Part shown: in pieces, positions 1,791-48,760 of the stretch
Position numbering within the stretch: position 1 is the stretch's first letter
How the letters are laid out: every line of letters begins with the position of its first letter
Origin: Chlorophyllum brunneum
Taxonomy: Eukaryota > Basidiomycota > Agaricomycetes > Agaricales > Agaricaceae
Assembly: GCA_963576785.1 (NCBI GenBank)
Contig: OY756139.1
Span: 3,968,001-4,032,000 of the forward strand
Direction: 5' to 3'
Length of the DNA stretch: 64,000 bases
The notes under the pieces: generated by a model
Seen by the model: only the letters and a program-made list of their open reading frames with translations
Told to the model about the DNA's origin: nothing
Databases searched by the model: none
Program-made: the position numbers and the translations under genes

Positions 1791-1791
1791 A

Positions 1792-6439: not shown

Positions 6440-6905
6440 ATCCTTTTCTTTTCCCCCCCTTTTTTTTTTTCTTATGCTCTCCTGGTTATGGACTTCAAAT
6501 TCATTTCTCTATCTCTCCCTTCCTTGCTCATCTACTATTGTATATATAGTTTTCATTCAAAACCCATCTCTCCCGTGGTGTCTGGGCAAATGCCCTCCCA
6601 CATGCTAGTACCGTTTGTTGTTCCCCCTTGTGATTGCGAGTAGATAGTTTCTTTCTATCAATTTCTCTCTCTCACTCTCTCTCTTTCTGAATTCCTCTCT
6701 TCCTCTTTCTCACTGATCAATGTAGGTACCAAACATCTCTCTAGTGTACACGCTAGACGGCATCGAGTCTCAAGGGGTTAGTTTACACATAGTTTACTTT
6801 CCCTGCTCTGAACATTCTGTACATTCTAACTTTGTATGTATGTACATGCAGACTGCGTTCGAGCACCGCTATATAAATTGTTGATTAAAAAAAAAAAAAA
6901 AAAAA

Positions 6906-7753
6906 CCAAAGAGTTCCTTGGCATGAAGATTTCATGAAACCCTATAAACCAATCAATTACCCTAGACCAAATAGATTATCTAGGAAAAGTTCTTGATTGA
7001 TTTAAAGTAATTGGAAAAGAAGAAATTCCATTACCAAATGGATTTATCTTCGAATCCAATACAGGACAGGTGACACCTGACTTTATAAAGAGGTATCAGC
7101 AGTTAGTAGGATCAGTTATGTATCTGATGATAGGCAGTCGGCCTGACATAGCATTTGCCACTGTCAAATTATCACAACATATGACCAACCCTACTAAAGC
7201 GCATTACAATGCAGCCTTACATTTGCTAAAGTATCTTAATGCTACTTGCAAATATAGAATTACCTATAATGGAAGTTCTATGGAAGGCCTTAATGCGTTT
7301 TCAGACTCTGATTGGGCTAGTGATCCAATTAGTCATAAATCTGTAACTGGATATTTCTGTTTATTAGCCAGTGGAGCTATTGCTTGGCTAAGTAGAAAAT
7401 AGAAAACAGTAGCATTATCTTCCACCAAAGCTGAGTATATGGCTTTGTCAGATTGCAGTCAACAACTTGTTTGGACTGTCAATTTGTTGGAAGAAATTGG
7501 TATCCGATCATTAGCCCCTTATCTCTTTGGTGATAATGAGGGTTCAATATTTTGGGCCAAAAATCCAGTAACAGAAAAATGTTCAAAACATGTCGACATC
7601 AAATACCATTACATACGTGATTTGGTAGAAGACGGAAAGATTGAAATATTCTCTGTAAAAGGCACAGAAAATCCTGCCGATATTCTCACAAAGAATTTGG
7701 ACAAAATCAAATTCAATCTATTCCAACCTTACCTTGGCTTGATGTTTGAGTGA
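6906..7753 (+). pseudogene. Copia E pol fragment: end of reverse transcriptase and RNase H
   Basis: Ty1/Copia-type pol on the plus strand. The reading runs from the reverse transcriptase tail (KEFLGMKIS) through VGSVMYLMIGSRPDIAFAT, the RNase H start (SDSDWASDPISHKSVTGY), ALSSTKAEYMALSD, and the typical end KYHYIRDLVEDGKIEI ... NPADILTKNLDK, stopping before the purine tract GCAAGGAGGAG at 7777-7787. It is cut on the left by the LINE poly(A). TGA stops lie near 6934 and 6994. A TAG near 7400 replaces the CAG of copy 2. It is therefore a dead fragment lacking gag, protease, integrase and the catalytic half of RT. Confidence 0.88.
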
Positions 7754-20715: not shown

Positions 20716-22037
20716 GCTGTCCTCAGATTCTTCTCCTTCTTCATCAGATCCTTCTTCCATTGGGTAAAGATTATTGAGCTGCTGCTTGAGGATGTGGTCA
20801 ACATCCATGGGACCATAGCCTGGGGGGTTACTGCTTCTTTGAGTTGGCTGGTAAGGTCTTGCATAAGACATCGAACTTGATGCTTTTTGAGTGCAATATT
20901 TTGAGTGATGGGAGGTATGTCATACTGAGTGACAATGTCCCGTTGAGCTAAAATTCTGTTGTAGGTGTGCCATTGTTGCTACATTTTGCATGGCTGTGTA
21001 CCAAGCATTGCTGTCATTTGGGGCAGGGTTCTGACTGTAGACAAGCCTTTTGTAATATGGATCCAGTCCTTTAATGAAGAACATGATTTTGGTCTCTGTG
21101 TGGGTGATTCCGGCTCGGGTACACATATTCTTGAATTGCTCAACATAGACTGCGGTGGGTTGTCCATTCTGGGTGACATTAGATAGTTGATTGATGGCGA
21201 CGAGGGTGTCGTTTGCTGGTAGAAACGAGGTGTCAAGTTCTGTGAGGAACTGTTTGATGGTCTGGGTGGGGCTGAAGACATTGTTGGTAGTATGTGAGAT
21301 GGTGTAGGCTTATTTCCATTCTCTGGCCAATTCTTCCATGCTAAGAAGGGCATACATGATTTTGGACTTGTCATTTGGTAGATTGTTGGGCTGTGATGCA
21401 AAGTAGATCTGGAGGTTCTGCTTCCAGTTGGGATAGTCAAGCAGGTCACTGTAGAAAATGGTGGGCTTTGGGAGCTTGGGGTCTGGCATGTTTGATCCTG
21501 TGGGTGAGTTTGGTGGCGAGCTTGCTGGGGAGTTTGACAGGGATGATTGGCAGGTTTGTGGCTGTTGGGTTGTTCTGAGTGTGATTGGAGGTCCTGGTGT
21601 TCTGGTCATCTGCTGGTGGGTGCTGGGAGGTACCACTGGTTGGGTTGTCTGGTAGCTGGTTGACTGGTAGTTGGTCATCTGGCTAGTCTGACTTTGTTGA
21701 GCTTCCCTTTCTCTTTGTTCTCGGAGTAGCTGGAGGGCTCCAGCAAGTGGGTTTGGTGAGTTTGATATGTTGTCATCGGATTTGTATTGGGGCTCAAGTT
21801 CTGGTGTCTGGGGTAGTGGCTCTTCAGAGTGCTCACTTCCATGTTCGGAGTGCTCAGGGTTGTCTGAGTGTTCAGACTCAGTAGAGATGGGTTTTCTGTA
21901 CTGTTGGTCAGACTGCTGGGATTGCTGGGATTGCTATGATTGTTGTCTTGAGATTGCTTGTTGTGCCCAGTCGGATTGCATGTAAGCAGGTGTCTGATAA
22001 GGCTCTGAACTCTGTCTTGGGGCAAGTTCACTGGTTC
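20716..22037 (-). pseudogene. Gypsy F2 gag, C-terminal part
   Basis: Minus-strand gag. A Gln/Ser/Pro-rich stretch is followed by a capsid domain: FYSDLLDYPNWKQNLQIYFA, KIMYALLSMEELAREW, FLTELDTSFLP, YVEQFKNMCTRAGITHTETK, FFIKGLDPYYKRLV. Capsid proteins of this Retrotrans_gag type form the particle shell. Stops near 21310 and 20920 break it. The upstream part lies at 33834-34638: removing the composite LINE and one copy of GTTCACTGGTTC joins the two in frame. I assign it to the GyF family because the 5' LTR and leader at 58819-60034 lie on the same strand. The left end is cut at about 20715 by LINE L2. Confidence 0.75.
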
Positions 22038-22304
22038 TTTTTATTTTTTATTTTTTTTAATCATTAATTTATATAGCAGTGCTCAATCACAGTCCACATG
22101 TACATACATACAAAGGCAGAATGTACAGAATGTTCGGAGCAAGGAAAGTAAACTACAAATAAACTAACCCCACAAGACTTGACACCATCTAGTGCATACA
22201 CTAGAGAGAAATTTGGTACCTAAGTTGTTCAGTGGGAAAAGAAATAAAGGATTTCAGAAGAGAGAGAGTGAAAGAGAGAAATTGATAGAAAGGAAACTAT
22301 TGAC

Positions 22305-24462
22305 TCACAAACACAAGGGAGAACAACGAACAGTACTAGTATGTGGAGGGGCATTGCCCAGACACCACGGAAAAGATGGATTTTGAATGAAAACTACATA
22401 AAATAGTAGACGAGTGAGGAGTGAGAGAGATAGAGAAATGGAATTGAATTCCATAACTGGGAGAGCACAAGAAAAAAGAAATAGAGAGAAAGGACTCATG
22501 TGGGCACAGACCTGAACCTCTGAAGAACTTGACAATGATGATGTAATGGGGGTATTGAACCAGTGCAGATACGAGGGCAATCAGGTTCTGGAGGGAAGCT
22601 GAACATAGCAGGATTGCGACATAAGAAGTTGACAAACTTCTTGATGGTGTTGACACTGTAGTGGTGGTCAAAATGCTGACACTGGTAGAGGATGTGTGAC
22701 TTTGGACCAGTTGATTGTTGCAGTGGTGGCATGATAAATCCCCATTAGGGAAGAACCTAAGGTGGTATTCTCCAATCAGGATGTAACATAAAATGGCATA
22801 ACAAGCTCGTGCAAAGAGCTGAGGCTGGTATCCGCATTCTTGTATCCATGGACTGGAGTTGATATGCAATGGTAAGGCAGAGGCTCTATTCACTTGCACC
22901 AAAAGGTAGAGGAAGGAGCTACCACTGTATTTCTTGAACCCAAACATGGCCTGCCATGTGTGAATGGCGCATTTAGTGGACTTCTTTCATAAGAAGGTGA
23001 CGGAGTTAGGGATGCAGTGATTTTGCCTCCAGTTGGGCCAGGCAACTGTCTGTATCTGGTTGTGAGTGGCTTGTTGAATCCCGTACTTGCATTTGGACAG
23101 AGTATGGTAGAACAAAAGGTGGTGCAGGTCTGACTTACTGAACCAAGTCATGAGTGCCTTCGAGGTGAGGATAGACTGCCGCTGACAAGAATGCAGCAAG
23201 CAATCAAGAAGAAGCCTAGAGGCCATGAGGGAGTCAGTGAATACATGAATGTGTTCAACCTCCTCATAGTCATTGGTGGCAAGAGCCTTAGTGATGCCAA
23301 GGTATTGCACGACTAGTTTGGTGTCAGTGGATGTAGTTTCTCTGAGTCTCTTCATAGCTGAACTTCCTCCATCCAGATATCAAATGGTGGCTGCAGCCAT
23401 GTACTGGCTACCAAGCGGATTAGGGTTGGGATGGACCAAGCCATCCATGCCAATGATAATGGATTTGGGGTCCATCATTGCATTCATTGTTACATCATCC
23501 CAAAGTTGTTTCGAGAGGTGGGGGTTGTCCTGGTTGAATCCTATAAAAGATACATTAGTAGAGAAGTGGTCAAGTAACCTATGTCCAGGCCACAGAGTCT
23601 TAGAAACAGAGTTGAAAGATTCTACATAATGAATCTCGGGGGTGGGGTGGGAAATGTCCATCACAGCTCCGAGTGTCTTCTTCTTCTGAATCTCCATGAA
23701 ATTCTTGATGTGAAGTTGATGGGGGGAAGAATGATACTCTTTTGTCAATCTTGCTAGTACGTGTTCATCATCCAAAGTATGAATCTTCGATGTTTGTCAT
23801 TTGGCCAACTTGCAGAGATGTAGTTTGATGGGCATGAGCCCTGCAAGGGACTCGATGCCACTGGTGGGAGAAGTACAGAATACCCCAGTGATCCAAAGGG
23901 CTACTCTACGTTGCATTTTATTGAGGATTTCACAAGTTCCCTTAGTGCGGGATTGATCATGAAACCATAGTCAGTAACCGTATGTTGCTACCGGGACAAC
24001 ACACGATCTATAGAGTAGTCTCTTATTGCAGGGGGAAAGGCCACAAACAGAGTTGTCTAACACCTTCATTGCCTTGATAGACAATATAGCTTTGGCAGAA
24101 TAGTATAAGATGTGTTCTTTGAAAGAGAGCATCCTGTCAAAATAGAAACCGAGATAACACCAATGGGTCTTTGGTTTGAGGGGGGTATGACCTGTGAATG
24201 GGGGAGTTCCCAAGTTGATGGAAGGGTTGGAGTCCTGTCTTGCACAGGTAAAGTGGAAGACTTCAGACTTGCTGTGTTTGATAACAAGACCAAAATTGCT
24301 CATGAGGCATTCTATCTCACTATACATGTGTTGTAAGATCTCGACATTGCTTTTGAGAGTGGGGAATTGGGTGATGAGGGTACCATCATCAACAGAAGAT
24401 AAGATGTCAAAATCCCATTTGTCACAATGAACTTCCATTCGAACATCAAATATTCAGAGGAG
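22305..24462 (-). pseudogene. Composite 1 LINE part: ORF2 from RT palm to C-terminus
   Basis: Only the 3' half of ORF2 is present, from just upstream of the catalytic box (WDFDILSSVDDGTLIT, both Asp present, about 24385). It continues through the RT thumb (SFKEHILYYSAKAI, GLSPCNKRLLYRSCVVPVATYGY), RNase H (IIIGMDGLVHPNPNPL, HIHVFTDSLMASRLLLDC) and the region WQAMFGFKKYSGSSFLYL. Frames are broken at about 23970, 23800, 23376, 22987 and 22700. The Cys/His finger and 3' UTR follow to the poly(A). The endonuclease is absent because the cDNA switched to module H. Confidence 0.85.
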
Positions 24463-24876
24463 CTCAACCAAGGGGCCCTTGCAGACTAATGCCCTTACCC
24501 CCTGAAGGTGGCATCGCAGTATCAACTTAAGCAGGTACACTTGGCTTCTCTCTGAGACCCACTGACAGAGGATTTAGACCTCTCCGGCCAGGCTGCACAT
24601 TCTCTGCATGGTCCGCCATGGCCCACCAGTGGTTCCAAGGTCTCACTCCTGGCTGGCTTCCCGTGCCCCAGCACCCACTTCACTATGCCCATAGGGCATG
24701 GATCCATGTGTTAATGGTGTCTGGGGTCTCTGTCTTGCAGGGGCTGCTACCAGGGAGGTGATTGCACCTTGTTTACAAAGCAAATCCATGGAATGCCTTG
24801 CAGCACCCATGTGGAATAGCACCCTGGAGTTTGAGTAATCCCTACTAATGTCTAGCACAGCCAGAGGGGGTTGTCT
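24463..24876 (-). other. Module H copy 1, segment nearest the LINE
   Basis: The first of three pieces of the H module in composite 1. It starts at the plus-strand motif CTCAACCAAGGGGC and is about 90% identical to 32498-32905 by eye. It is split here by LINE L5, whose target duplication AGAGGGGGTTGTCT is at 24863-24876 and 27183-27196. No known protein or RNA family was recognised. Confidence 0.75.
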
Positions 24877-24884
24877 CTCTTGCA

Positions 24885-25640
24885 GGGCTCATGCCCATCA
24901 AACTCCATCTCTGAAAGTTGGCTGAACAACAAACATCAAGGCTTTACACATTGGACAATGAACATGCTCTGGCAAGATTGACAAAAGAGTATCATTCTTC
25001 CCCACACCGACTTCATATCAAGAATTTCACAGAAATTCAGAAGAAGAAGACACTTGGAGCTGTGATGGACATTTTCTGCCCCACCCCCGAGACTCATTAT
25101 GTAGAACATTTTAACTCTGTTTCAAAAACTATCTGGCCCGGACGTAGGTTACTTGACTGCTTCCATACTAATATATCTTTTATAGGATTTAACCAGGATG
25201 ACCCCCACCTCTCAAAGACACTTTGGGATGATGTAACAATGAACACGACAATGGACTTCAAGTCCATCATTATTGGCATGGATGGCTTGGTCCACCCCAA
25301 CCCCAACCTGCTTGCTGGCCAGTTCATGGCAGCAGCCACTATTCGACACCTGGACGGAGGGAGCTCTATCATGAAGAGACTTGGAGGAACAATGTCAACT
25401 GACACAGAACTGGTGGCGCAATACTTAGGAATTACCAAAGTACTTGCCACTGATGACTATGACCAGGTTGAACACATCCATGTGTTCACCAACTCCCTTG
25501 CAGCCTTTCAGCTCCTGCTCAGCTGTTTACCACACTCCTGTCAGCAGCAGTCCATCCTCACCTCAAAGGCGCTCTTGACTTGGTTCAACAAGTCTGACTG
25601 ACACCGCCTCTTGTTTTATCACACTCCGTCGAAGTGCAAG
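24885..25640 (+). pseudogene. LINE L5 ORF2 remnant with RNase H
   Basis: A long open stretch (24918-25601) encodes the linker after RT (LYTLDNEHALARLTKEYHSS) and RNase H (IIIGMDGLVHPNPNLLAGQ, TMSTDTELVAQYLGITKVLA, EHIHVFTNSLAA). The catalytic Asp of HVFTDS is Asn here (HVFTNS). CAA at the KLAEQQ site, and CGA in SPHRLH, show the ancestral CGA at positions where L1 has TGA. Another ORF2 piece, the Cys/His finger (CDHCDNQMVQTRLHILYHC), resumes at 26391-26713. It is non-functional. Confidence 0.85.
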
Positions 25641-26214
25641 TGTTGAGGAAATGACCGTAACGAGTTGTTTGCTGGGGGCAGCAGTAAATGCAGTGGGAGA
25701 GAACATAGGGTCTACTTACCAATACAATATACTTCTATATGATACCTATAGAAAGGTAATTCAGATAGACAGATATGAGTTATAAAGAGGTCGGTGTCAG
25801 AGGTAGACAGGTCAAAGTCGAGGAGATCGAGACTGGTGTTGTACTGAAGAAGATAAGCGATGATGAAGAAGTTGTTCGATTGAACAAGATGCAGAACTTA
25901 GGTCTGCTACATGGGGTTTATATACATATTGTAACATAGGTGAGTCATACTACATAAAATACTAGTAATGCATAGATTGTTCCTTATGACTCTCTTTAAC
26001 TGTGGCATAGTGCCTGCGGAGTACTGTGGAACGTAGTATACTAGTCATTGGTACTATGTAGAATTATCTATCAAGTACTTATGACTCTCATCATATGCAG
26101 AGCAACTCATAGGAAGTTACTACGGAATTGAAGTTACTGGAAAGTAATGGATCAGTCTATTATTATCATAATGACTTCATAGTCTATTTCTAGAGTATGT
26201 CCGAAACTTCAACA
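25641..26214 (-). repeat. Solo LTR of Copia E in LINE L5
   Basis: The inverted copy (TGTTGAGGAAATGACC ... GAAACTTCAACA) is 574 bp. Flanking bases GCAAG and ATTTA do not match, so it did not arrive as a simple insertion at its present position. Its 8128-8253-equivalent patch matches copy 1 of the LTR, not copy 2. Confidence 0.88.
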
Positions 26215-26390
26215 ATTTATACTAACTACTTCTTTTCTATAAATACTACAGAGTATAGATAATGAGACTGGAACAGGTTTCACAATGTGAAACTGATAGA
26301 TATGAAACTCATCAAAGCTTAAGCTTTGACTTCCTAATACAGTCAGCTATTTATACTAACTACTTCTTTTCTATAAATACTACAGAGTAT
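26215..26390 (-). repeat. Rearranged fragment of the GyF LTR
   Basis: Two pieces of the GyF LTR promoter region in swapped order. TTATACTAACTACTTCTTTT-type sequence occurs twice (26219 and about 26347), once before and once after the AAAGCTTAAGCTTTG palindrome. It lies between the Copia E solo LTR and resumed LINE sequence. Confidence 0.7.
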
Positions 26391-27196
26391 TTGCAAGAGT
26401 ATGTCACACTATCCTATGCCATGCCCCAATTGGTGAATACCAACTTCGGTTCTTCCCCAATGAAGATTTATCTTGCGACCACTGCGACAATCAAATGGTC
26501 CAGACTAGGTTGCATATCCTCTATCATTGTAACAACTTCAATCATCACTTTGGTGTCGACACCATCAAGACACTCATCAACTTCTTGCATCGCAACCCTA
26601 TCACGTTCAGCTTCCCTCCAGAGCCTGATCACCCTTGTATCCACGTCAGTTCAATACCCCCGTTACATCATCGTCGTCAAGACCATCAGAGGTTCAGGTC
26701 CGCGCCTGCATGAGTCCTTTCTTCTTTTTTAATTTTTTCTTGTGCTCTCCCAGTTATGGACTTCTATTCCATTTCTCTATTTTCCCTTTCCTTGCTCGTC
26801 TACTATTTTATATAGTTTTCATTCAATATTCATCATTCCCATGGTGTCTGGGCAAAAGCCCCTCCACACACTAGTACTGTTTGTTGTTTCCCCTTGTGTT
26901 TGCGAGTCAATAGTCCCTTTCTATCAATTTCTCTCTTTCACTCTCTCTATATCTGCTCTCTTCCCCTTTTTTCTCTTGTTTCCACTAAACAACTTAGGTA
27001 CCAAACATCTCTCTAGTGTACGTGCTAGATGGCGTCAAGTCTCATGGGGTTAGTTTACGAATAGTCTACTTTCCTTGCTCCAAACATTCTGTATGTTCTG
27101 CCTTTGTATGTATGTACATGCGGACTGCAATTGAGCACCGCTATATAAATTGATGATTAAAAAAAATAAATAAATAAAAAAAAGAGGGGGTTGTCT

Positions 27197-27740
27197 ATGG
27201 ATCCACACCCTTGCAATATGACTGGAGGGGGGTAGCCTGTCCTTGCAGTCAGCTTGTTTTTTCCCCAAACCCCCTCTTATTGACTCCTATCCTTTCAGAC
27301 TCTCTCAGGCTCAGCTGGGCAGTTTTTCTCAATGCACCCCCAGCTGGGGAATGGGGCAGAATGAAGCCTCTCCTGTAGTTCCCATGTTGGAGTAGAGGCC
27401 TAGTTAGACTAGACTTGTACTGTAGCTCAGTCAAATAGACCAATGCTAGTCCCGCCATTGGGGAACTATGACACCATTTGGGAGTGCGCTGGGCCCCTCC
27501 GCTGCTAGAGGAGCCCTCAAAGTGAATGGGCAGAAGGCGACCAGCATGTCTAGTCTTTGACCCCCTTTGCCAAGGGGGCACCCCCTGCCATCCTGTACAA
27601 CCCAGTATCAACTCTTGTCTAGAGAAATCAACAGGCATACCCCATCATTAAGGCCCTTCACCAAGGGGCCACTCCCCCTGCTTGAACTAATTCTTGTCCA
27701 CCATATGATGGATCCCAACCTCTGTTCATGCATCCAAGAT

Positions 27741-27741
<1 letters not shown>
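27197..27741 (-). other. Module H copy 1, middle segment
   Basis: Matches 32905-33440 of copy 2. It ends at the composite 2 insertion, whose target duplication TGCATCCAAGATC is at 27729-27741 and 33630-33642. An open minus-strand frame (27249-27638) shares residues with the copy 2 frame (MAGLALVYLTELQYKSSLTR) but has no recognised domain. Confidence 0.75.
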
Positions 27742-27775
<34 letters not shown>

Positions 27776-28205
27776 ACAATTTATATAGCGGTGCTCAAAC
27801 GCAGTCTGCATGTACATATATACAAAGATAGAATGTACAGAATGTTCAGAGCAAGGAAAGTAGACTAAATGTACACTAACCCCACAAGACTCAACGCCAT
27901 CTAGTGCATACACTAGAGAGATGTTTGGTACCTAAGTTGAACAGAGTAAATATGATTAGAGGAATTCGGAGAGAGAGAGAGTGAGAGAGAGAAAATGATA
28001 GAAAAGAACTATTGACTCGCAAACACAAGGGAGAACAATGAACGGTACTAGCATGTGGGAGGGTTTTTGCCCAGACACCATGGGAATGATGATCATATGA
28101 ATGAAACTATATAAAATAGTAGACGAGCGAGGGAAGGAAAGAAAGAGAAATGGGGATGAAATCCATAACCGGGAGAGCATAAGAAAAAGGGAAAAAGAAA
28201 AGGAT

Positions 28206-31200
28206 TTATGCAGGTGCAGACCCAAACCTCTGATGGACTTGATGACGATGTAGCAGGGGTATTGAACCAGTGTGGAAGCGAGGGCAGTCAGGCTCTGGGG
28301 GGAAGCTGAACCTGGTAGAGTTATGACGCAAGAAGTTGACTAGTGTCTTGATTGTGTTGATGCCAAAGTGATGATCGAGGGTATTGCAACAATAGAGGAT
28401 GTGCGACCTAGTCTGGACCATTTGATTGGCACAGTGGTGGCAAGATAAATCCTCGTTGGGGAAGAACTGTAGTCAGTATTCACCAATTGGGGCATGGCAT
28501 AAGATGGCACGACACGCTCTTGTGAACAGCTGTGGCTGGTAACTGCATTCTCGTATCCAGGAACCGGATTTGATGTGCGATGGTAGAGCAGAGGCCCCAT
28601 TCGCTCGCACCGGGAGGTGAAGGAAGGAGCTACCACTGTATTTTTTGAATCCAAACATGGCTTGCCATGTGTGAATGGCTCGTTTGGCGGACTTCTTGCA
28701 TAAGTAGTCTATGGAGTTAGGGACTCAGTGATTTCGACCCCAGTTAGGCCAGGCAATTGTTTGGATCCAATCGTGAGTGGCTTTCTGTATTCCATATTTG
28801 CACTTCAATGGAGTGTGATAGAACGAAAGGTGGTATAGGTGAGACTTGTTGAACCAAGCCAGAAGTGCCTTCGATGTAAGGATGGACTGTCGCTGGCAGG
28901 AGTGTGGCGAGCAATCAAGTAGGAGCCGAGAGGCTGTGAGGGAGTTGGTGAACACATGAATGTGTTCCACTTGGTTGTAGTTGTTGGTGGCGAGTACCTT
29001 AGTAATTCCTAGGTATTGTGCAACCAGTTCTGTATCAGTCGACATTGTTCCTCTGAGCCTTTTCATGATAGACCTTCCTCCGTCTAAGTATCGAATAGTA
29101 GCCACCACTGTGAACTGGCTAGCAAGTGGGTTAGGGTTGGGGTGGACCGAGCCGTCCATGCCAATAATAATGGACTTGAAGTCCGTCGTTGCATTTGTCG
29201 TAACATTGTCCCAAAGTGTCTTCGAGAGATGGGGGTTGTCTTGGTTAAATCCTATAAAAGATACATTAGTAGGAAAATGGTCAAGTAACCTACGTCCGGG
29301 CCAGACAGATTTAGAAACAGAGTTAAAGTGTTCTATATACCGAGTCTTGGGGGTGGGGTGCGAAATATCCATCACAGCTCCAAGTGTCTTCTTCTTCTGA
29401 ATCTCCGTGAAATTCTTGATGTGAAGTCAGTGTGGGGAAAAATGATACTCTTTTGTCAATCTTGCCAATGCGTGTTCATTGTCCAATGTGTGGAGCCTCA
29501 ACGTTTGTCCTTTCGGAGATGGAGTTTGATGGGCATGAGCCCTGCAAGGGACTCGATGCCACTGGTGGGAGAAGTCCGGAAGGCTCCAGTAATCCAGAGC
29601 GCCGCACTTCTTTGCATTTTGTTGAGGATTTCACAGGTCCCTTTATTCCGTGACTTGTCATGAAACCAAAGTCGATATCCATATGTCGCCACTGGCATGA
29701 CACACAAACGGTATAATAATCTTTTATTGCTAGGGGACAATCCATGTACGGAGTTCCCTAACATTTTCATCGCCTTGATCATTGATATTGCCTTGGCAGA
29801 ATAGTATCAGACATGCTCCTTGAAGGTTAACGTTTGGTCGAAATAGAAACCGAGGTATTGCCAATGGGCTTTCAGCTTGAGAGGGGTGCGGCCAGTGAAT
29901 GGAGGGGATCCCAAGTCAATAGAGGGATTGGAGTCCTGTCTCGCATGTGTAAAGTGAAAGACTTCGGACTTACTGTGTTCAATTTCAAGGCCAAATTCAT
30001 TCATGAGCTGCTCCATTTCGTGGTACATGTGTTGGAGGATTTCAACATTTCGTTCAAGGGACGAAGATTGCACAACTAAGGTGCCATTATCTACAAAAGA
30101 AAGGACATCAAAGTCCCATCTGTCGCAGTGTTCCTCCATGCGTACGTCAAATATGTGAAGGAGGGGGGCGAGGTATAGGGCAGAGAGAATGGGACTAAGG
30201 GCTGAGCCTTGGCCCACTCCCACCACTGTGTCATATTCTGGGGAGCTTTCGTTGTTCCACTGGTAGGTAGTGCAGTGCTCTTTGAGATAGTTGTTGAAGA
30301 ACACTGCAACTTGGGGGGGAAATCCCTGTCAACCTAGTATATCGATAAGGAGGTTGTGGTTAAGGAAGGGGAAGAATTGGGCAACATCGAATGCGAGTAC
30401 TGATGTCTTCTTCTTCTTCGTCCAAGCTCCCTAGATAATGTGAGTTAGGAAGAGTCCTGCATCCTCAGTGGATCGTTGTTGGATGGCTCCTGGTGGAGAA
30501 CCTTGAATTTCACTGCCTCAGGTTGAAGTTGCTTGGCAAGCATCTTTTCTATTAACTTGCCAAGCATGTTGAGAAGGATGATCGGTCTGAACGCTTTCAG
30601 GGTAGAGTAGTCGGGTTTGTTAGGTTTGGGGATAATAACCGACGTTGACTTCTTGAAATGTGCAGGCCAATGTCCAAGTGTTAGGCATGCATGACTGATT
30701 CTGAGGAGGAGATCAGCGCAGGTGTCAATAGCGGCAATCTGTTTGAGGTGGGACCAGGAAATGTGGTCGGGGCCAGGGGCAGAAGAATTTGAGGTATCCT
30801 TGAGCGATTCCATCATCTCAAGAAGAGAGAAGTCCACCCAAGTCCTATTCTCCAACCCAATTGGTAGAGGAAGTTCGTCTAAGACAGCCACGTTAACTGG
30901 TCTGTTGTGGGCCGCATTGTAGTGTTGGTCAAGGGCCGTCCACAGGCTGTCCATAGTGAGACAGGGTCGGCCATTGTGGCAAATGGCTTCTGTAGCCAGG
31001 AGCGCGCATGCTTTGACCCATGGCATCAGATCCCATGGACATTTATTGTCGACTGAGATTTCTTGGATCTTCTTGTCAAAATACACTCTTTTCATTTTCC
31101 TTGTGGTCTTGCAAAAGGCATTCCATTTACGCTTGTTCTTGTGGTCTGCACAGTGAGTTGCAAGTGCAGTAGAGCACTTCTTGTTCCACCAGGTTTTGGA

Positions 31201-32235
31201 CCTAGTGGTGATCTTGGTTTTCTTTGCATTACGCTTCCAGGACCTGTCAAATAAGCCTCCCAAATCAGCATCAGCTCTCTCCAGTTCGTCCGCATCATTT
31301 ATCGGCCAGTTCTTGTTGTTAATTCCTTCCATGATATCTGTCAGGAATTTGGTTTCCTCTTCCGAGTCTTTGGGAATTGTCAATCTCTCAATGACAACTT
31401 CCATCTGTGGGATAGACAACCTGATTAGAAGGGGGGCGTGATCCGAGTTGTATCGATCACCTTCCTGGACAGCATGGATGGGGACATATGGTAACATTCC
31501 CAAAAAAAACAACAGATCTATGACTGTGTCTGGCAAATTGGGGTCTGAGGCGTAGCGAGTTGGTATGGCCACAGACAGAATTGACCTCTCTAAGTTGAGG
31601 GCTTCAGTGATCATGAGGAGACAGTCCACACTCGCCAGATGTTGGTCCGTTGAAGGGTCCCATCGCTCAGATCAAATGTTAATATCTCCACCTAGTAAGA
31701 GAAAGGGCGGAAGGTTGAAGAGGCGCTCCTCGAGGAAGTGGAGTGTGGTGTTACGGCTGTCATTGTAAACATTCAGCAGTAGTAGTTCTTCTCCTCCTGC
31801 ACAAAGAGAGATGCACAGGAGGTCTCGATGTTCAATAATATCCCTTCTGATGGAGGGTCGAAGTCACCTAAGTCTCTTGTGAGCAAATGCAAGGACTCGG
31901 GGAGTGGTACAGTGTTCCATGTTCACCGTCCGTTGAGGGTAATGGCGGCATCCAACTTGGAGGACTTCTTCAGTGATGATTGGATATGAAAGAAGCATCC
32001 AGTCCGGGTGGACTGGGCCCCCCACGAGGGGAGAGCCATCGTTAGATATGGGGGAAGGGATATCGCAGAGATATCTCCACGAGGGTTCTTGTATTAGGAG
32101 GAGGTCAACGTCACCTCTATGCGTGAGGACTGTCTCCATCACTCCATATGATCTTCCAACATTGTGAGAACAAACCTTTAACTCACTCAGAAGCAAGTGA
32201 GGAGGCCTGTCTTGATTGTCGGGTGTGTTATTCAT
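28206..32235 (-). pseudogene. LINE L6 ORF2 (endonuclease, RT, RNase H), degenerate
   Basis: The start is ATG 32235, overlapping the ORF1 stop as ATGA. Endonuclease: VCSHNVGRSYGVMETVLTHRG, LLIQEPSWRYL, YNSDHAPLLI. RT: SAPGPDHISWSHLKQ, RPIILLNMLGKLIEKMLAK, GVGQGSALSPILSALYLAPLL. The catalytic box is FVDN (codon at 30086-30088 AAT). RNase H: IIIGMDGSVHPNPNPLAS. The Cys/His finger ends near 28206. Stops or shifts lie near 31863, 31629, 30480, 30305, 29806, 29498, 28722 and 28473. It is dead, but every domain is still readable. Confidence 0.88.
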
Positions 32236-32497
32236 TTAGGGGGGTTAGTCTGGCTTCAACTAGCTGGGGATGATGAGGAGGGGGGCAGTGGGACTCCTTT
32301 GTTGGCTCTTAGTTCGAGCACTTTATTGGCATGCCAGTCGTGGTCAAATTGTTTCTTCTAGAATTGGCATTTATGGTCAGTAGCGAGGTGGTCCTTACCA
32401 CAGTTGGAGTATGTAGCCTTGTGGGGGCATGGTTCTCCAGAGGGGGTGGCCGCAATGGGTGGGTCTGCTTTGTCATTGCCCTTGCAGCAGTAGGCAA
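32236..32497 (-). pseudogene. LINE L6 ORF1, C-terminal end
   Basis: The last ~85 codons of ORF1 with one knuckle (YSNCGKDHLATDHKCQFW; the first Cys is changed to Tyr) and the tail before ORF2. The frame ends TGA, overlapping the ORF2 ATG. It is cut at 32497, the fusion point with module H. Confidence 0.72.
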
Positions 32498-33629
32498 CTC
32501 GACTAAGGGGCCCCTTGCAGACTAATGCCCTTACCCCCCAAAGGCAGTGTCGCAGTATCAACTTAAGCGGGTACACTCGGCTTCTCTCCGAGACCCACCG
32601 ACAGAGGATTTAGACCTCTCTGGCCAGGCCGCACATTCTCTGCACAGTCCGCCATGGCCCACCAGTGGTTCCAGGGTCCCACCCCCGGCTGGCTTCCCGT
32701 ACTCCAGCACCTACTTTGCTATGCCCATAGGGTGCAGATCCACGTGTTAATGGTGTCTGGGGTCTCTGTCTTGCAGGGGCTGCTACCAGGGAGGTGATCG
32801 CGCCTTGCTTACAAAGCAAATCCATGGAATGCCTTGCGGCACCCATGTGGAATAGTGCCCCAGAGTTTGAGTGATCCCTACTAACGTCCAACGCTGCCAG
32901 GGAAAGGTATACACATCCTAACTGCAGTTGGAGGGGGGTAGCCTGTCCTTGTGGTTGGCTTGTTTTTTCCCCTAACCCCCTCTTATTGACTCCTATCCTT
33001 TCGGACCCTCTCGGGCTTAGCTGGGCAGTTTTTCTCAATGCGCCCCCAGCTGGGGAATGGGGCAGAATGAAGCCTCTCCCGTAGTTCCCATGTTGGAGTA
33101 GACACCTAGTTAGACTAGACTTGTACTGCAGCTCAGTCAAATAGACCAACGCTAGTCCTGCCATTGGGGAACTACGACACCATTTTGGGAGCGCACTGGG
33201 TTCCTCCACTGCTAGAGGAACCCTCAAGGTGAACAGGCAGAAGGTGACCGGCATGCCCAGTCTTTGAGCCCCTTTTCCAAGGGGGCACCCCCTGCCGTCC
33301 TGTATAACCTGGTATCAACTCTTGTCTAGAGAAAGCGACAGGCATACCCCATCATTAAGGCCCTTTGCCAAGAGGCCACTCCCCCCGCTCAAACTAAATC
33401 TCGTCTACCATATAACGGATCCCAACCTCTGTTCGTGTGTCCAAGAGCGAGTGAGTATGCAGCGGCCAGCATACCCAGCCTTTAACCTCCTTCACCAAGG
33501 GAGTACTACACATCACCCTGTGTATAAGACAGTGCCAGGACCTAATGTCCAGCAAGAATAGGCTAGAAGCCCCCCACCAGAGAACTGTCCCAATTAGGAA
33601 GGTAGTGGTAAGAGGTCAAGAAGGGATGG
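32498..33629 (-). other. Module H copy 2, complete (1132 bp)
   Basis: An unknown module forming the 5' part of composite 2. Its sense (minus) strand begins CCATCCCTTCTTGACC at 33629 and ends GGGGCCCCTTAGTCGAG at 32498. GC content is higher than the LINE around it. A 214-codon minus-strand frame (32610-33254) contains blocks also open in copy 1 (LLQHGNYGRGFILPHSPAGG, FHMGAARHSMDLLCKQGAI), but nothing matches a protein I know. I cannot match it to rRNA, tRNA or snRNA. The equal endpoints of both copies suggest a discrete cellular or element RNA. Confidence 0.75.
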
Positions 33630-33642
33630 TGCATCCAAGATC

Positions 33643-33821
33643 GAGTGAGTATGCAGTGGCCAGCATATCTAGCCTTTAACCTCCTTTGCCAAGGGAGTAC
33701 TTCACATTGCCCTGTGTATAAGATAGTGCCAGGACCTAATGTCCAGCAAGAACAGGCCAGAACCCTCCCACCAGAGAACCATCCCAAATAGGAAGGTAGT
33801 GGTAAGAGGTGGTATGGTGAG
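33643..33821 (-). other. Module H copy 1, 5'-terminal segment
   Basis: Matches 33444-33629 of copy 2, so the two look like a 197-bp tandem repeat. They are in fact the 5' ends of two nested elements, separated by the composite 2 target duplication at 33630-33642. The 5' end of composite 1 is at 33821, directly before the second GTTCACTGGTTC. Confidence 0.8.
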
Positions 33822-33833
33822 GTTCACTGGTTC

Positions 33834-40900: not shown

Positions 40901-41476
40901 GTCGGAGGTATGGTGGTAGATCTTCATCATCCATCCGGTCCGCTTTTTTCTCTTCAATGTGTTCCTTGACTGTTCATATTTTCTTGTTGAACTGTATGTC
41001 GCTATGTGATATCTTGCAATCTTCTGGACATCTGGTGAATCGTATGACGTGATTGTTCCAATCGATTTCTGGGTTATGCTTGACCAGCCAGTCATGTCCG
41101 AGATATAAGTCTGCACTTTCCAGTTGTGTTACCAAAGCGTCAATTTGTTCCGTGTGGTTGCCATTGTTTAATACCAGTTGTGCCTTGTCCATTATTTCTC
41201 CTTTTTTATTTTCTGTTCCATCGGCATTGATTACTCTGATTGGAGTTTCCAGTGGTTTGGTCGTGATCTGTTCTTCTTCTATTGTTTGCTGTGCTATGCA
41301 CGTGTGGGTGCATCCGGAGTCCACGAGGGTTGTAATTGGTCTGCGTCCTTTTCTTGTCTGGATCGTTGAGTCGAGGAGAAGTTCGCGCATAGAGTTTCGT
41401 TTTTGGGGAATCACGTATTGTCTATTGTGTGATAAAACAGAAACTCTAGTTTTATTGGCTTGCGGGTTTGCGCCTA
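37992..41476 (-). pseudogene. Gypsy C pol: protease, RT, RNase H, integrase, chromodomain
   Basis: Protease (LVDSGCTHTC, about 41330). RT with the catalytic box VNYMDDFVIPG (about 40340). RNase H (VEVNASGYRVGAVLSQ; the first Asp is replaced by Asn). Integrase zinc-binding region (HHDRTDVGHPGQHRM ... CDTCQRNK), core (SIDMIGPMPESEGYDAILV, RIISDRGPQF, QTDGQTERINQE). C-terminal chromodomain (YLVHWKGYTSEEDTWENE). Stops: TGA at 40974-40976, where A has CGG, and TGA at 40074-40076 in FYR*FIQDF, a stop shared with element A. pol ends TGA 37992-37994, overlapping the ATG of ORF3. Confidence 0.92.
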
Positions 41477-42746
41477 CTCGGAGCCTTCGACAAAATCCTC
41501 TTTCTCCTCTCTTTCTTGTTCGTCTTCTTCATTGATTTCCCTGATATGCGCTTTTTTAGGTGCCCGGCAGTTCTTTCGAGATGTGGCCCTGTTTGCCGCA
41601 ATTGTAACACATTATCTTGGTGTACGTGACTTTCGTCTTCTTCCTGCAGTACTTGGCGATATGCCCATAGAGGTTGCAGTTGTAGCACCTTGGTTTTCCA
41701 TTTTGATCGGTGTCTGCCCTTTGTCGTCCTATCTCCATGGGTTGTCCTCTACCTCCATAGATAACTCCGGTGGTAGTTCTGACATCTCCTCGGGTGATGT
41801 CTGTCGCTTCATAACCCTGTCCTACAGCGAGGATTGTGGTTTTCCATTTGCTGTATGTCGTTGGTACGGAGGCTGTCGGGTAGCCTACTATGGTTCGAAT
41901 AATATCTGCTCAGGTGTGGCGTTTGAGGAGGAATATTGCATGGGTGTTGTCTGTCCCCGCTTGGGCTTTCAGTGCCTCGAATTCGATTAAGAAATCGGCT
42001 GTATTCTTTTTCCCTTGTTTGAACGTCTCGATTTCTCCTTCTGCTATGGCTTTCCTATTCCCCAAGGAGAATGTGGCTTCTATTTCCTTTGTGAAGTCAT
42101 CCCAACCCGGTGTTTTCTTATTCTGGATGGCTTGTAGTTGCGTGTTGGCGTAAGGACCTGCTAGTCCTCCTTTCATTCTTGCCAAAATGGCTACTATTTT
42201 CTGTTCCTCTTCATCTATCTTGTTGAACATTAGCCATAAGGATATGGCTCTCCACCAATCATCAAATTTGGTCCTATCCCCATTGAAATATCCTGGTTCC
42301 GGGGCTAGGTTTTTTGGGACGTTGATTTCATCTGTCATTTCTGGTTCTAACTCTGGTTCGCTGTGTTCATTTTCGTAGGTCTCGGCGATTTCTATATCGG
42401 CTGTGGCGTCGGCGACTTCTGTGTCGAATTCGGTTTCAAATAAAGCTGTGTCGATTTCTTCTTCAAATGGGGCTGGTTCTTCGTCTGTGCTGTGTTCGGA
42501 TTCTTCCTCATAGGTCTCGGCGATATCTATATCGGATGTGTTCTCAGCGACTTCTGTGTCGAATTCAGTTTCAAATAGAGCTGTGTTTTCGTCTACGCTG
42601 TGTTCGGATTTCTGCCGTTTAAGGCCTTCAGGGATTTCTGGTTCTGTTGATCGTTTGGATCCTGTTGCTACGGGTGAACCCTGGATGTCGGTTGGTCTCG
42701 GAGCTCTGTGTCTTCTCGGTGTTCTCAATGAGCTACTGCTGCTCAT
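41474..42746 (-). pseudogene. Gypsy C gag, broken
   Basis: ATG 42746, same layout as element A: Ser/Arg N-terminus, acidic repeats (with the additional ALFETEFDT unit), a gag domain (FNGDRTKFDDWWRAISLWL) and two CCHC knuckles. TGA at 41910-41912 replaces CGA of copy A (KRHTRADIIR). An added A in the second knuckle (about 41571) shifts the frame so it reads SKELPGT and stops, where copy A has SKNCRAPK. Confidence 0.9.
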
Positions 42747-42827
42747 ATACTGTCGTCCTGGTCGGAGGCTGTTATTCCAAGCCTAGTTACGAATAGTGGC
42801 ACCTCTTCTTGCAAGGTGAGTTGAATG

Positions 42828-42839
42828 ACACTTTACCAA
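42828..42839 (-). other. Primer-binding site of Gypsy C (self-priming type)
   Basis: Sense TTGGTAAAGTGT, one base from the 5' LTR. It is identical in the B and A elements and complementary to the predicted RNA 5' end. Confidence 0.75.
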
Positions 42840-42840
42840 A

Positions 42841-43141
42841 TGTTACGACCTTAGTCTCTGACTCAGGTTGCAAGCCTTTGGATAAAGGAAAGGAAGTAGA
42901 GAGAGGAAGAAGGGATGATACGATTGGTAAAGTGTAAGGAATACATCAAGTATTACTACACTTTATATACTAGTGGTAAGGGCTAATAATAAGGGGGTCG
43001 AGTAAAGGAGTCATAGGAGACGAGTAGAATGAGTCAGGTAAGAGGCATAGCCTCTAGGGGTGATACAGGAGATGAAATGAGTATGCAGGTACACGAGGTA
43101 ATGGGCGCATGATAGGAATGAACGGCCTATGATTCGTAACA
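42841..43141 (-). repeat. 5' LTR of Gypsy C
   Basis: 301 bp. At one site the two LTRs carry TGGG and CAGG. Both can come from CGGG by CpG decay on opposite strands. Confidence 0.95.
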
Positions 43142-43539
43142 GCCAGCGCCAACCTGGGTGTACCATTCTGTGGAAAATGCTGCAGGTGGGGCCACCTCCT
43201 AATCCGCTGCTGAGCAAGGCTCTTTACCTGCGCACACTGCAAGGGGCCACACTCCACTGCCAACCATTGATCATTTGCCTACTGCTGTAAGGGCAACGAC
43301 AAAGCAGAACTGCCTGTTGCGGCCACCCCTGCTGGAGAACCATGCCCTCACAAGGCTACGTGCTCCAACTGTGGCAAGGATCACCTTGCTACTGACTGAA
43401 AGTGTCAATTCTGGAAGAAGTGATTCGACCACGACTGGCATGCAAATAAAGCGCTCGAATTGAGAGCCAACAAAGGAGTTTCACCACCCCCCTCCTCATC
43501 ATTCCCGGCTAGTCGAAGCCAGACTAACCCCCCTAAATG
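43142..43539 (+). pseudogene. LINE L3 ORF1, C-terminal part
   Basis: Cys/His clusters CGKCCRWGHLLIRC and CSNCGKDHLATD in a frame broken by TGA (near 43213, 43269, 43397 and 43421). It ends TGA 43538-43540, overlapping ORF2 ATG 43537 (ATGA). Its first ~13 bases are left of Gypsy C at 36618-36630. Confidence 0.75.
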
Positions 43540-46500
43540 AATAACGTCCCCGATGATCAAGACAGGCCTCCTCGCTCACTCCTGAGTGAGTTGAAGGTCT
43601 GCTCTCACAACGTTGGAAGATTGTATGGAGAGATGGAGACAGTCCTTGCGTGTAGAGGTGACGTTGACCTCCTCCTCATACAAGAACCCCCATGGAGATT
43701 TCTCTGTGACATTCCCTCATCCATCTCTAATAATGGATCACCCCTCGTAGGAGGCCCAGTTCACCTGGACTGGACACTCCTTTCATATCCGATGATCACC
43801 AAAGAAGTCCTCCAAGTGGGACGCTGATGATATCCTCAACAGATGGTCAACATGGAACACCGTACCACTCCCCAAGTCCTTGCCTTTGCCCATAAGAGGC
43901 TGAAGCGACTCTGACCCTCCATTAAAAGAGATTTAATAGAACATCAAGACCTCTTGTGTATCTCCTTATATGCAGGAGGAGAAGAACTACTGCTGCTAAA
44001 TGTCTACAATGACAGCTGTAATACCACACTCCATTTCCTCAAGGAGTGCCTCTTCGACCTCCTGCCCTTTCTCTTAATGGGTGGAGATATCAACATCCGA
44101 TCAGAGATATGGGACCCTTCAACGGATCAACATCTGGCGAGTGTGGACCATCTCCTTATGATCACCGAAGCCCTCAATCTTGTGAGGACGACCCTGTCTA
44201 CGGCCATACCAACTCGTTACGCCTCGGACCCTAATTTACCAGACACGGTCATCGACCTGTTGTTTGTCTCGGGAATGTTACCATACATCCCCACCCACAC
44301 TATCCAGGCAGGCAATTGGTATAACTCGGACCATGCCCCCCTTTTAATTAGGTTGCCTATTCCGCAAATGGATATTGTCGTCGAAAGATTGACTATCCCC
44401 AAGGATTCGGATGAGGAAACCAGGTTTCTGACAGACATAGTGGAAGGAATCAACAACAAGAACTGGCCGATAAATGACGCAGAAGAGCTGGAGAGAGCTG
44501 TCGCAGAATTGGAGGTTTTATTTGACAGATCCTGGAACCGGAATGCGAAGAAGACCAAGATCACCACTAGATCCAAGACCTGGTGGAACAAGGAGTGCTC
44601 CACTGCACTCGCTACACACCACGCGGACCGCAAGAACAAGCACAAATGGAACACTTTTTGCAAGATCACAAGGAAAATGAAAAGAACATATTTCGACAAG
44701 AAGATCCAAGAAATCTCAGTCGACCAAAAATGTCCGTGGGATCTAATGCCATGGTTTAAAGATCGTGCACTCCTGGCTATGGAAGCTATGCATCATAACG
44801 GCCAACCTTGTCTTACTTTGGATGACTTATGGATGGCACTCGACCAACATTATAATGCTGCCCACAACAGACCAATGAACGCGGCAGTCTTGGACGAACT
44901 TCCTCCACCAAACGGAATGGAGAATAGGACTTGGGTGAACTTCTCTCTCCTCGAGATGATGGAATCACTCAAGGATACCTCGAATTCTTCCTCCCCCGGT
45001 CCCGACCATATTTCCTGGTCCCATCTTAAGCAGATTGCCGCCGATGAAACTTGCACCAATCTCTTCCTCAAAATCAGCAGTGCATGTCTAAACATCGGAT
45101 ATTGGCCTGTGCATTTCAAAAAGTCAACATTGGTGATCATCCCCAAACCTAACAAACCCAACTACTCCACTCTGAAGGCATTCAGACCAATCATCCTCCT
45201 CAATACACTTGGTAAACTAATAGAAAAGATGCTCACCAAACGACTCCAATTTGAGGTGGTGAAATTCAAAGTTCTCCACCCTCACCAACTGGGAGCCATC
45301 CGCCAACGATCCACTGAGGATGCGGGACTCTTTCTGATGCACATCATTTGGGGAGCTTGGATGAAGAAGAAGAAGACATTGGTGCTCGCATTCAATGTTG
45401 CCCAATTCTTCCCCTCCCTAAATCACGATCTCCTCATCAACATACTAGGACGACAGGGATTTCCCCCACAAGTCGCAGCATTCTTCAACAATTACCTTAA
45501 AGATCGCCGCACAACCTACCGGTGGAATAACGAAACCTCCCCGGAATACGATACAGCGGTAGGAGTAGGTCAAGGTTCTGTCCTTAGCCCCATCCTTTCT
45601 GCCCTATTTCTCCCCCCCCTCCTTCACATTTTTGACATCCGTATGGAGGAACACCAGGACAGATGGGACTTTGATGTCCTTTCATTTGTTGATGACAGTA
45701 CCTTAGTCACACAATCCCCGTCCCTTGAACAGAACGTCGAAATTCTTCAACACATGTACTGCGAAATGGAGCAGCTCATGAATGAATTCGGCCTAGAAAT
45801 TGAACACAGCAAGTCCGAAGTCTTTCACTTTACATGTGCAAGGCAGGACTCAAATCCCTCTATTGATTTGGGATCACCGCCATTCACTGGGTGCACCCCC
45901 CTCAAACCAAAAACCTATTGGTGTTATCTCGGTTTCTACTTCAACCGGACGTTGACCTTCAAGGAACACATTCGATTCTACTCCGCCAAAGCAATATCCA
46001 TGATTAAGGCAATGAAAATGCTAGGGAACTCCGTAAGAGGTCTGTCCCCCAGCAACAAAGGACTATTATACCGTTTGTGTGTTGTACTGGTGGCGACATA
46101 CAGATACCAACTTTGGTTTCACAATAGGTCATGGACCAAAGGGACTTGTGAAATCCTCAACAAAATGCAAAGAAGTGCGGCGCTCTGGATTACCAGGGCC
46201 TTCCGGACCTCTCCCACAGGCGGCATTGAGTCCCTTGCAGGGCTCATGCCTATCAAACTCCATCTCCAAAAGTTGGCCAAATGACAAACATCGAGGCTTC
46301 ATACATTGGACGATGAACACGCATTGGCAAGACTGACAAAGGAATATCACTCTTCCCCTCACCGACTTCACATCAAGAATTTCACGGAGATTCAGAAGAA
46401 GAAGACACTTGGAGCTGTGATGGATACTTCGTGCCCCACCCCCAAGACTCATTATGTAGAACATTTTAACTCTGTTTCTAAATCTGTCTGGCCCAGATGT

Positions 46501-47587
46501 AGGTTACTCGACTGTTTCCCTACTAATATATCTTTTACAGGATTTAACCGGGACAGCCCTCACCTCTCAAAGATGCTTTGGGACGATGTTATGACTAATG
46601 CGACAATGGATGACAAGTCCATTATTATCGGCACAGATGGCTCAGTCCACCCCAACCCCAACCTGCTTGCCAGCCAGTTCACGGCGGCAGCTACTATTCA
46701 ACACCTAGATGGCGGGAGCTCTATCATGAAGAGGCTCGGAGGAACTACGTCAACAGACACTGAACTGGTCGCACAGTACTTAGGAATCACCAAGGTACTT
46801 GCAACTGCAGAATACGACCAGGTTGAGCACATTCATGTGTTCACCGACTCCATCGCAGCCTCTCGGCTCCTACTCGATTGTTCGCCGCACTCTTGCCAGC
46901 GACAATCCATCCTCACATCAAAAGCACTCCTGGCTTGGTTCAACAAGTCGGACCAGCACCACCTTTCCTTCTATCACATGCCGTCTAAGTGTAAATACAG
47001 TATACAGAAAGCCACTCACGATTGGATTCAAACAGTCGCCTGGCCTAATTGGGGTAGAAATCACCGAATCCCTAACTCCGTGGACTACTTATGCAAGAAG
47101 TCCACCGAACAAGTGATCCATACATGGCAGGCCATGTTCAGATTCAAGAAATACAGCGGTAGCTCCTTCCTCCACCTCCCAGTGCAAGCGAATGGGGCCT
47201 CCGCTTTACTGTCGCACATCAAGTCTGGTCCCTGGATACAAGAATACAGCCACCAGCCTCAGCTCTTCGCAAGAGCGTGTCACGCCATCCTATGCCATGC
47301 CCCGATCAGGGAGTTTCGACTTTGATTCTTCCCTAACAAGGATCTATCTTGCCACCACTGTGACAGTCAAATGATACAGACTAGGTTGCACATCCTCTAT
47401 CATTGCAACAACTTTGATCATCATTTTGGCATCGACACCATCAAGACTTTCGTCAACTTCTTGTATCGCAACCCTACTGCATTCAGCTTCCCTCCAGAAC
47501 CTGACCGCCCTCGTATCCATGCCAGGTCAATACCCCCATTACATCGTCGTCAAGTCCAAAGGAGGTTTGGGTCTGTGCCTGTGTAAA
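43537..47587 (+). pseudogene. LINE L3 ORF2, best-preserved copy
   Basis: Endonuclease start MNNVPDDQDRPPRSLLSELK, VCSHNVGRLYGEMETVLACRG. TGA breaks at 43827 and 43912. It is then open for 776 codons (43954-46284) through the endonuclease end, all of RT (FRPIILLNTLGKLIEKML, GVGQGSVLSPILSALFLPPLL) with the catalytic FVDD intact (45688-45696). After TGA 46282-46284 it is open for 339 codons (46306-47325) with RNase H (IIIGTDGSVHPNPNLLAS, EHIHVFTDSIAASRLL). The Cys/His finger lies at 47342-47410. Few lesions separate this copy from an intact ORF, so it is younger or less decayed than L1 and L6. Confidence 0.9.
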
Positions 47588-48052
47588 TCCTTTTCTTTTC
47601 CCCCCCTTTTTTTTTTTCTTATGCTCTCCTGGTTATGGACTTCAAATTCATTTCTCTATCTCTCCCTTCCTTGCTCGTCTACTATTGTATATATAGTTTT
47701 CATTCAAAACCCATCTCTCCCGTGGTGTCTGGGCAAATGCCCTCCCACATGCTAGTACCGTTTGTTGTTCCCCCTTGTGATTGCGAGTAGATAGTTTCTT
47801 TCTATCAATTTCTCTCTCTCACTCTCTCTCTTTCTGAATTCCTCTCTTCCTCTTTCTCACTGATCAATGTAGGTACCAAACATCTCTCTAGTGTACACGC
47901 TAGACGGCATCGAGTCTCAAGGGGTTAGTTTACACATAGTTTACTTTCCCTGCTCTGAACATTCTGTACATTCTAACTTTGTATGTATGTACATGCAGAC
48001 TGCGTTCGAGCACCGCTATATAAATTGTTGATTAAAAAAAAAAAAAAAAAAA

Positions 48053-48459: not shown

Positions 48460-48760
48460 TGTTACGACCTTAGTCTCTGACTCAGGTTGCAAGCCTTTGG
48501 ATAAAGGGAAGGAAGTAGAGAAAGGAAGAAGGGATGATACGATTGGTAAAGTGTAAGGAATACATCAAGTATTACTACACTTTATATACTAGTGGTAAGG
48601 GCTAATAATAAGGGAGTCGAGTAATGGAGTCATAGGAGACGAGTAGAAGGAGTCAGGTAAGAGGCATAGCCTCTAGGGGTGATACAGGAGGTGAAACAAG
48701 TATGAGGGTACACGAGGTAATGGGCGCATGATAGAAATGAACGGCCTACAATTTGTAACA
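48460..48760 (-). repeat. 3' LTR of Gypsy A
   Basis: 301 bp. TTGGTAAAGTGT at 48543-48554 (sense ACACTTTACCAA) is the predicted RNA 5' end, complementary to the primer-binding site. Confidence 0.95.

Follow-up and report, generated by a model that had tools for sequence, protein, structure and literature searches.

The window examined here is a stretch of 64,000 nucleotides (nt) from the fungus Chlorophyllum brunneum (C1:3968001-4032000; genome of 38.9 Mb in 14 contigs), and it harbours two composite retroelements. Each consists of the 3' part of a long interspersed nuclear element (LINE), ending in poly(A), and, on the 5' side of this, the same module of about 1.1 kb, here called H. A sequence-only reading of the window had described two such chimeras, each within its own perfect target duplication, and both coordinates and letters agree with it: composite 2 (27742-33629, minus strand) is flanked by TGCATCCAAGATC and composite 1 (22038-33821, minus strand) by GTTCACTGGTTC (Table 1). 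As it had also proposed, the H edge is the same at both junctions (24463 in composite 1, 32498 in composite 2), while the LINE breakpoint differs. The break lies within the reverse transcriptase (RT) match of open reading frame 2 (ORF2) in composite 1, and in composite 2 it lies in a stretch of ORF1 that resembles zinc knuckles by eye; a Pfam search with this ORF1 piece gave no match. Composite 1 was hit later by a plain 5'-truncated LINE and by composite 2, which split it and account for its length. The plain LINE has its own duplication (AGAGGGGGTTGTCT, at 24863-24876 and 27183-27196) and is itself interrupted at about 25640-26390.

Table 1. Features of the two composites, in window positions
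Feature	Position	Strand
Target duplication of composite 1, 3' side (GTTCACTGGTTC)	22026..22037	.
Composite 1, LINE 3' part; poly(A) at 22038, break within RT	22038..24462	-
Composite 1, H, 3' piece; H edge at 24463	24463..24876	-
Separate plain 5'-truncated LINE within H of composite 1, without an H of its own	24877..27182	+
Composite 1, H, middle piece	27197..27741	-
Target duplication of composite 2, 3' side (TGCATCCAAGATC)	27729..27741	.
Composite 2, LINE 3' part, from the ORF1 stretch to poly(A)	27742..32497	-
Composite 2, complete module H (1131 nt); 3' edge at 32498	32498..33628	-
Composite 2, 31-nt H start matching the LINE start	33598..33628	-
Target duplication of composite 2, 5' side	33630..33642	.
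Composite 1, H, 5' piece; initial ~13 nt unlike the usual H start	33643..33821	-
Target duplication of composite 1, 5' side	33822..33833	.

The genome contains 47 copies of H, counted by uniting by hand a DNA search and three letter patterns. The search scored 40 of 108 candidates and returned 42 matches, and the patterns were added for this reason; those for the 3' edge, the 5' end and the interior of H occur at 41, 44 and 45 sites, respectively, each against none for a reversed control. All 45 interior sites belong to these 47 copies, provided that pieces separated by up to 8 kb are taken together as one copy. Five copies (two on C4, one each on C6, C8 and C11) consist of same-strand pieces 2.5-8 kb apart that were taken to be one interrupted copy. 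Two of the 47 copies, L092 and L093, are cut by other elements ahead of their 3' edge. A repeat starting TGTTGAAGTTTCGGACATA, LTR-like (long terminal repeat) by eye, interrupts LINE and H copies alike, at 25640-26390 of the window and in L092, L037 and L036.

Junctions were read in 45 of the 47 copies (L001-L030, composite 1, L057, L058, L062, L073, L078 and L083-L091). In 44 of these, H ends at the common edge GTC(A/G)AG, with some decay (L023 is included, 3 nt shorter), and in 43 of the 44 a BLAST comparison places LINE sequence in the same orientation directly against this edge; the match of L089 is weak and to one reference only. The LINE breaks are spread from about nt 320 into the 3' untranslated region (UTR), nearly to the 3' end, of a LINE of ~6.8 kb. 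The outermost is that of L024, whose LINE part begins ~323 nt from the LINE start, matching the LINE 5' part. At its other end, H starts within nt 1-8 in all 30 loci L001-L030. Among the 43 LINE junctions, H was not found ahead of a complete LINE, and the 45 read junctions, which cover assembled DNA only, include no clear case of a solo H (the flank of L086 is unplaced).

Target duplications of 12-15 bp were found in all seven composites, out of the 47 copies, that could be checked at both ends. They are perfect in four (both window composites, L005 and L014), with one mismatch each in L006 and L062 and two in L026; the last three were completed by eye, a script having found no exact word of at least 7 nt for L026. 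The sequence-only reading had suggested a genome-wide count as a test, in which many variable LINE breakpoints at a fixed H edge would favour template switching, and the count turned out as it expected: the edge is fixed on LINE sequence in 43 of 45 junctions, the breaks vary, and each of the seven composites has its own duplication. In L062, a gap runs from nt 478 to nt 915 inside H (L062:829-1521), perhaps left by a jump within H RNA; the two ends, the duplication and the LINE junction of this copy are normal.

A fusion at the RNA level during LINE insertion agrees with the duplications, with the fixed 3' end of H and with its completeness at the other end. Most likely, the LINE reverse transcriptase made a template jump from the 5' end of a broken LINE RNA to the 3' terminus of a separate H RNA, which would be the simplest mechanism for the fusion. 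Each composite would then represent a single LINE insertion. Reverse transcriptase would prime at the 3' end of LINE RNA on nicked target DNA, as poly(A) and duplications suggest; copying would run back to a position that follows a pyrimidine in the LINE RNA, often in a C-rich stretch, and halt there; and the enzyme would go on to H RNA, entering at its 3' end and copying through to its 5' end. H RNA itself would be a discrete, probably folded molecule of ~1131 nt, with fixed ends and a 5' end like the LINE's own start, and several H lineages would have been joined repeatedly to different LINE fragments. The fixed edge, the variable breaks, the duplications, the common 5' end and the spread of H subfamilies over different breaks are observed; the jump, the free H RNA and whatever makes its 3' end are inferred.

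Several observations weigh against this account. Next to the H edge of L086 there is no convincing LINE match. In L091 (C13:53100-53700), H stops at nt 1060, not 1132, and is followed by the final ~90 nt of the LINE, with TGTAC common to both where they meet, a junction that may equally well reflect a deletion. In L023, the junction lies inside 9 nt (CCTTAGTCA) that are identical in the edge of H and in the RT region of the LINE, so that homology can also guide a junction; it is the sole break near the usual edge where such long homology was noticed. The plain LINE at 24877-27182 carries no H, and joining is therefore not obligatory. Lastly, no source gene for H was found, and H RNA is postulated from its genomic copies. 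As no H copy whose edge could be read is clearly placed outside a composite, the RNA could come from the composites themselves, by trimming of their transcripts to a terminal stem, and H may persist in the genome through such fusions only.

Immediately ahead of the LINE break, the reference LINEs have C 26 times, T 10 times, A twice and G never among the 38 placed cases, i.e. a pyrimidine in 36 of 38 (the count was compiled by hand, and six of the 44 breaks, those of L018, L021, L023, L058, L085 and L086, were omitted as ambiguous or special). The excess of C has a binomial P of ~6e-7 at p = 0.29; the C content of those LINE copies that were measured is 26-28%. Decay in this genome turns C into T, so some of the T ahead of breaks may once have been C. 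Breaks gather in hot spots at C-rich stretches, with five inside 9 nt in RT and three inside 4 nt (neighbours lie 1-8 nt apart, and alignment is uncertain in C runs), and two pairs of breaks are exact (L004/L022 and L030/L073).

Breaks after a pyrimidine and never after G could also be sites of RNA cleavage. Together with the fixed H 3' end, this speaks for an alternative in which an RNA ligase first joins the free 5' end of a LINE RNA fragment to the 3' end of H RNA, reverse transcription following. Ligation has been proposed for U6/LINE-1 chimeras, alongside jumping, in the accessible text of one report (PMC13174262). No sequence feature here sets prior ligation apart from a jump onto the H end, and it is considered unlikely, with a share of the probability that deserves mention. 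The jump put forward by the sequence-only reading is supported by the fixed edge, variable breaks and duplications; ligation would differ from it in the order of joining and reverse transcription.

The relation between H and the LINE bears on a second alternative. The length of ~6.8 kb was obtained from two overlapping copies, and ORF2 encodes endonuclease and RT domains. With 8000 candidates scored, its protein has 222 relatives at E 1e-30 or better, the best-scoring with 49% identity; among the best 120 of the 222, the named ones come mainly from mushrooms, e.g. Candolleomyces (Agaricales), Cyclocybe, Psilocybe and Tricholoma. The LINE 5' start, CATCCCTTCTT, was read in three copies (L081, L082 and L014) whose upstream flanks are unrelated. 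H starts with CATCCCTTCTTGACC. Over 31 nt, from one terminus to the other, its nt 2-32 match the start of L081 (87%, E 6e-6) and that of L082 (81%, E 0.003); no other match between H and the LINE pieces compared has an E below 0.13. An Rfam search with the LINE 5' ends gave no match at E 0.5. Judged by this common start, H is not without relation to the LINE, a point to be added to the sequence-only reading. Its 5' end contains no CpG and CpG decay is dominant, so strong conservation there is no proof of selection.

H might accordingly be taken for the LINE 5' UTR, and the composites for internally deleted full-length elements, as the first 31 nt common to both would allow. Beyond them, however, all three LINE 5' ends that were read lead into a different 5' region without H. 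The start motif has 242 sites in the genome at up to two mismatches, against none in a control; by their continuation patterns, 126 are of LINE type and 44 of H type, motif sites of neither kind being unread. There is also no complete LINE behind H at any of the 43 LINE junctions. H as a constant 5' UTR of full-length LINEs, which the sequence-only reading held to be incompatible with its chimeras, was not found, and this alternative was set aside on the LINE starts without H; it is now most improbable. At least 416 LINE 3' ends are present in the genome, so that H composites make up a sizeable share of the incomplete LINE copies.

Exons ahead of a splice donor often end in AG, as H does, and H could be a 5' exon joined in cis or trans to cryptic LINE acceptors and then retrotransposed. 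Spliced integrated LINE-1 elements (SpIREs), in which a 5' segment is fused to a LINE without its middle, share this anatomy with the composites. The base ahead of the LINE break is C or T in all placed cases except the two with A, and AG precedes it in none of the 38; splicing is therefore disfavoured, was set aside, and has next to no probability left.

The 30 copies L001-L030 were analysed as a family. Of 2527 changes from the H majority, 1828 are C>T or G>A, at a rate of 27-32% of CpG letters against ~5% elsewhere, which looks like decay of methylated cytosines. Subfamilies, grouped by eye, remain once this decay is set aside. S1 has three private transversion or indel columns in four copies with four different LINE breaks; S2 has two private columns in six copies with six breaks, three of them inside one 9-nt hot spot; S4 has four private columns in three copies; S3, S5 and S6 have none. 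The two S2 columns (279 and 291) form a predicted base pair with both sides changed, a double change that probably happened once. As S1 and S2 each span several LINE breaks, the multiplication of H is not tied to a given LINE part. The extent of decay overlaps among S2, S3, S4 and S6 (44-73 changes per copy), with S1 younger and S5 older, and the activity of several H lineages therefore seems to have overlapped in time. In a four-combination test of 741 marker pairs, the full set was present in 216, a number to be read in the light of non-independent neighbours, three alignment-end columns and possible homoplasy; it suggests that H lineages exchanged sequence and are apparently mosaic. Such subfamilies are not easily explained by a single host gene, and a multigene family in unassembled DNA could account for them.

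That the composites copy themselves as units, a few joining events yielding many copies, is a far-fetched alternative for which their LINE-like 5' ends, LINE 3' ends and two exact break pairs might be cited, and it was set aside because the H parts of neither pair go together: the private columns of S4 are present in L022 and absent from its partner L004, and L073 is nearest to L028 (87%), with its partner L030 (82%) among its farthest relatives, while the remaining breaks differ, if only by 1-8 nt between hot-spot neighbours and with the uncertainty of C runs.

H may also be a structured RNA, which the folding data mildly favour. In the RNAalifold model, CTTGAC at columns 10-15 pairs with the terminal GTC(A/G)AG, and the last base of H is that of the last base pair. 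The six pairs of this terminal stem are formed in 99.4% of cells; three are invariant and three vary on one side only, none of the six showing a compensatory change. When single copies were folded, the H ends paired in four of the eight tried, so that pairing between the two ends is weakly supported by the models. Over the whole fold of 337 pairs, 97.8% of cells pair against 97.4% in shuffled alignments, and 89 cells are changed on both sides against 54; none of 500 shuffles reaches either value. Neither the count of doubly changed pairs (31 against 26, as high in 32 of 500 shuffles) nor that of further pair types (218 against 215, as high in 110 of 500) stands out; two of five measures are thus without excess, and related copies inflate such numbers. 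The folding energies of three H copies are modestly low (z of -1.0, -2.4 and -4.1, with 24 shuffles each), compared with -0.7 for one antisense and -1.6 and -0.5 for two LINE controls. Rfam gave two matches to H, both far below the cut-offs.

The closest known parallel is MINE of Magnaporthe, in which WEIRD RNA is fused to the MGL LINE (PMC2104539). It had been named by the sequence-only reading, and the likeness extends to anatomy, the lack of solo copies and the pyrimidine bias. As far as the accessible text of that report goes, the 5' part is a complete RNA copy of 1.1 kb in both systems (WEIRD 1113 nt; H 1131 nt, its RNA being presumed), joined to a 5'-truncated LINE 3' part in the same orientation, with target duplications, variable breaks that include shared sites, and no solo copies of the 5' module (PMC2104539). 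Table 3 of the report lists representative sites; by our own count, C or T precedes the break in 18 of its 18 rows (16 C, 2 T), as compared with 36 of 38 here, and the authors give GCC*A/U as consensus (PMC2104539). The phylum and the LINE are different, and WEIRD is set beside H by anatomy, not by sequence. In the same text, WEIRD was judged not to be a transposable element, nothing similar was found in other genomes, its function was unknown and no gene for it was found (PMC2104539). Unlike WEIRD as described there, H has subfamilies and a LINE 5' start (PMC2104539).

Other systems share single features. In mammalian chimeras of U6, U3, 28S or Alu with LINE-1, as covered in the accessible text, an RNA is likewise joined 5' of a truncated LINE, in most cases sense-oriented, and duplications are present; these RNAs are known host RNAs, whereas no such source was found for H, which begins with LINE 5' sequence (PMC13174262). 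The trypanosomatid elements with Pr77, a 77-nt 5' end common to LINEs and SINE-like (short interspersed nuclear element) copies, resemble H in that a non-autonomous element shares a short LINE 5' end (PMC8190864, PMC4035085). H differs in having no constant 3' end: every insertion brings it another LINE 3' part, with varying breaks. The trypanosomatid non-autonomous elements have a constant body and tail, and a constant 3' end of their own defines them.

From their sequence anatomy, the H composites are the MINE/WEIRD pattern in a distant fungus. The literature searched, mostly without subscription journals, contained no MINE-like fungal chimera outside Magnaporthe, which is weak evidence of absence. 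New here are the 31-nt start common to LINE and H, the H subfamilies spread over different breaks and, with weak support, the end-pairing fold. The same anatomy and pyrimidine bias in a mushroom-like fungus suggest a lifestyle that recurs among the LINEs of fungi. The common 5' start gives an initial hint of the reason for the frequent choice of a single RNA, and it makes the long-standing puzzle of the WEIRD gene, which is missing, open to testing, in that composites might serve as their own source. A more speculative possibility, put forward tentatively, is that H is a retro-parasite, an RNA replicon without a 3' end of its own that mimics the LINE 5' end. The composites would be its genes, and transcripts trimmed to the end-pairing stem would free H RNA; LINE machinery would hold this RNA through the common 5' signature and add it to broken LINE copies, so that H would spread only by 5' addition. 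WEIRD may be of the same kind.

Between H nt 316 and 1026, a frame of 206-237 codons is open in 8 of 30 copies (e.g. window 32610-33254, minus strand), one of about 214 codons in 7 of 30, and is longer than simple shuffles give; shared changes show no codon-position bias, and there is no Pfam match and no protein relative at E 0.01. H also contains three repeats of ~55 nt (at about nt 125-180, 245-300 and 340-400), each comprising, by eye, a hairpin (CCCTTGGCAAAGGG) and then a second hairpin. Elsewhere in the window, the stretches 1-7200 and 41000-48500 are similar at ~90-92%, and the same LINE, flanked by LTR-element sequence, occurs in both; judged by this resemblance, the pair is an old segmental duplication.

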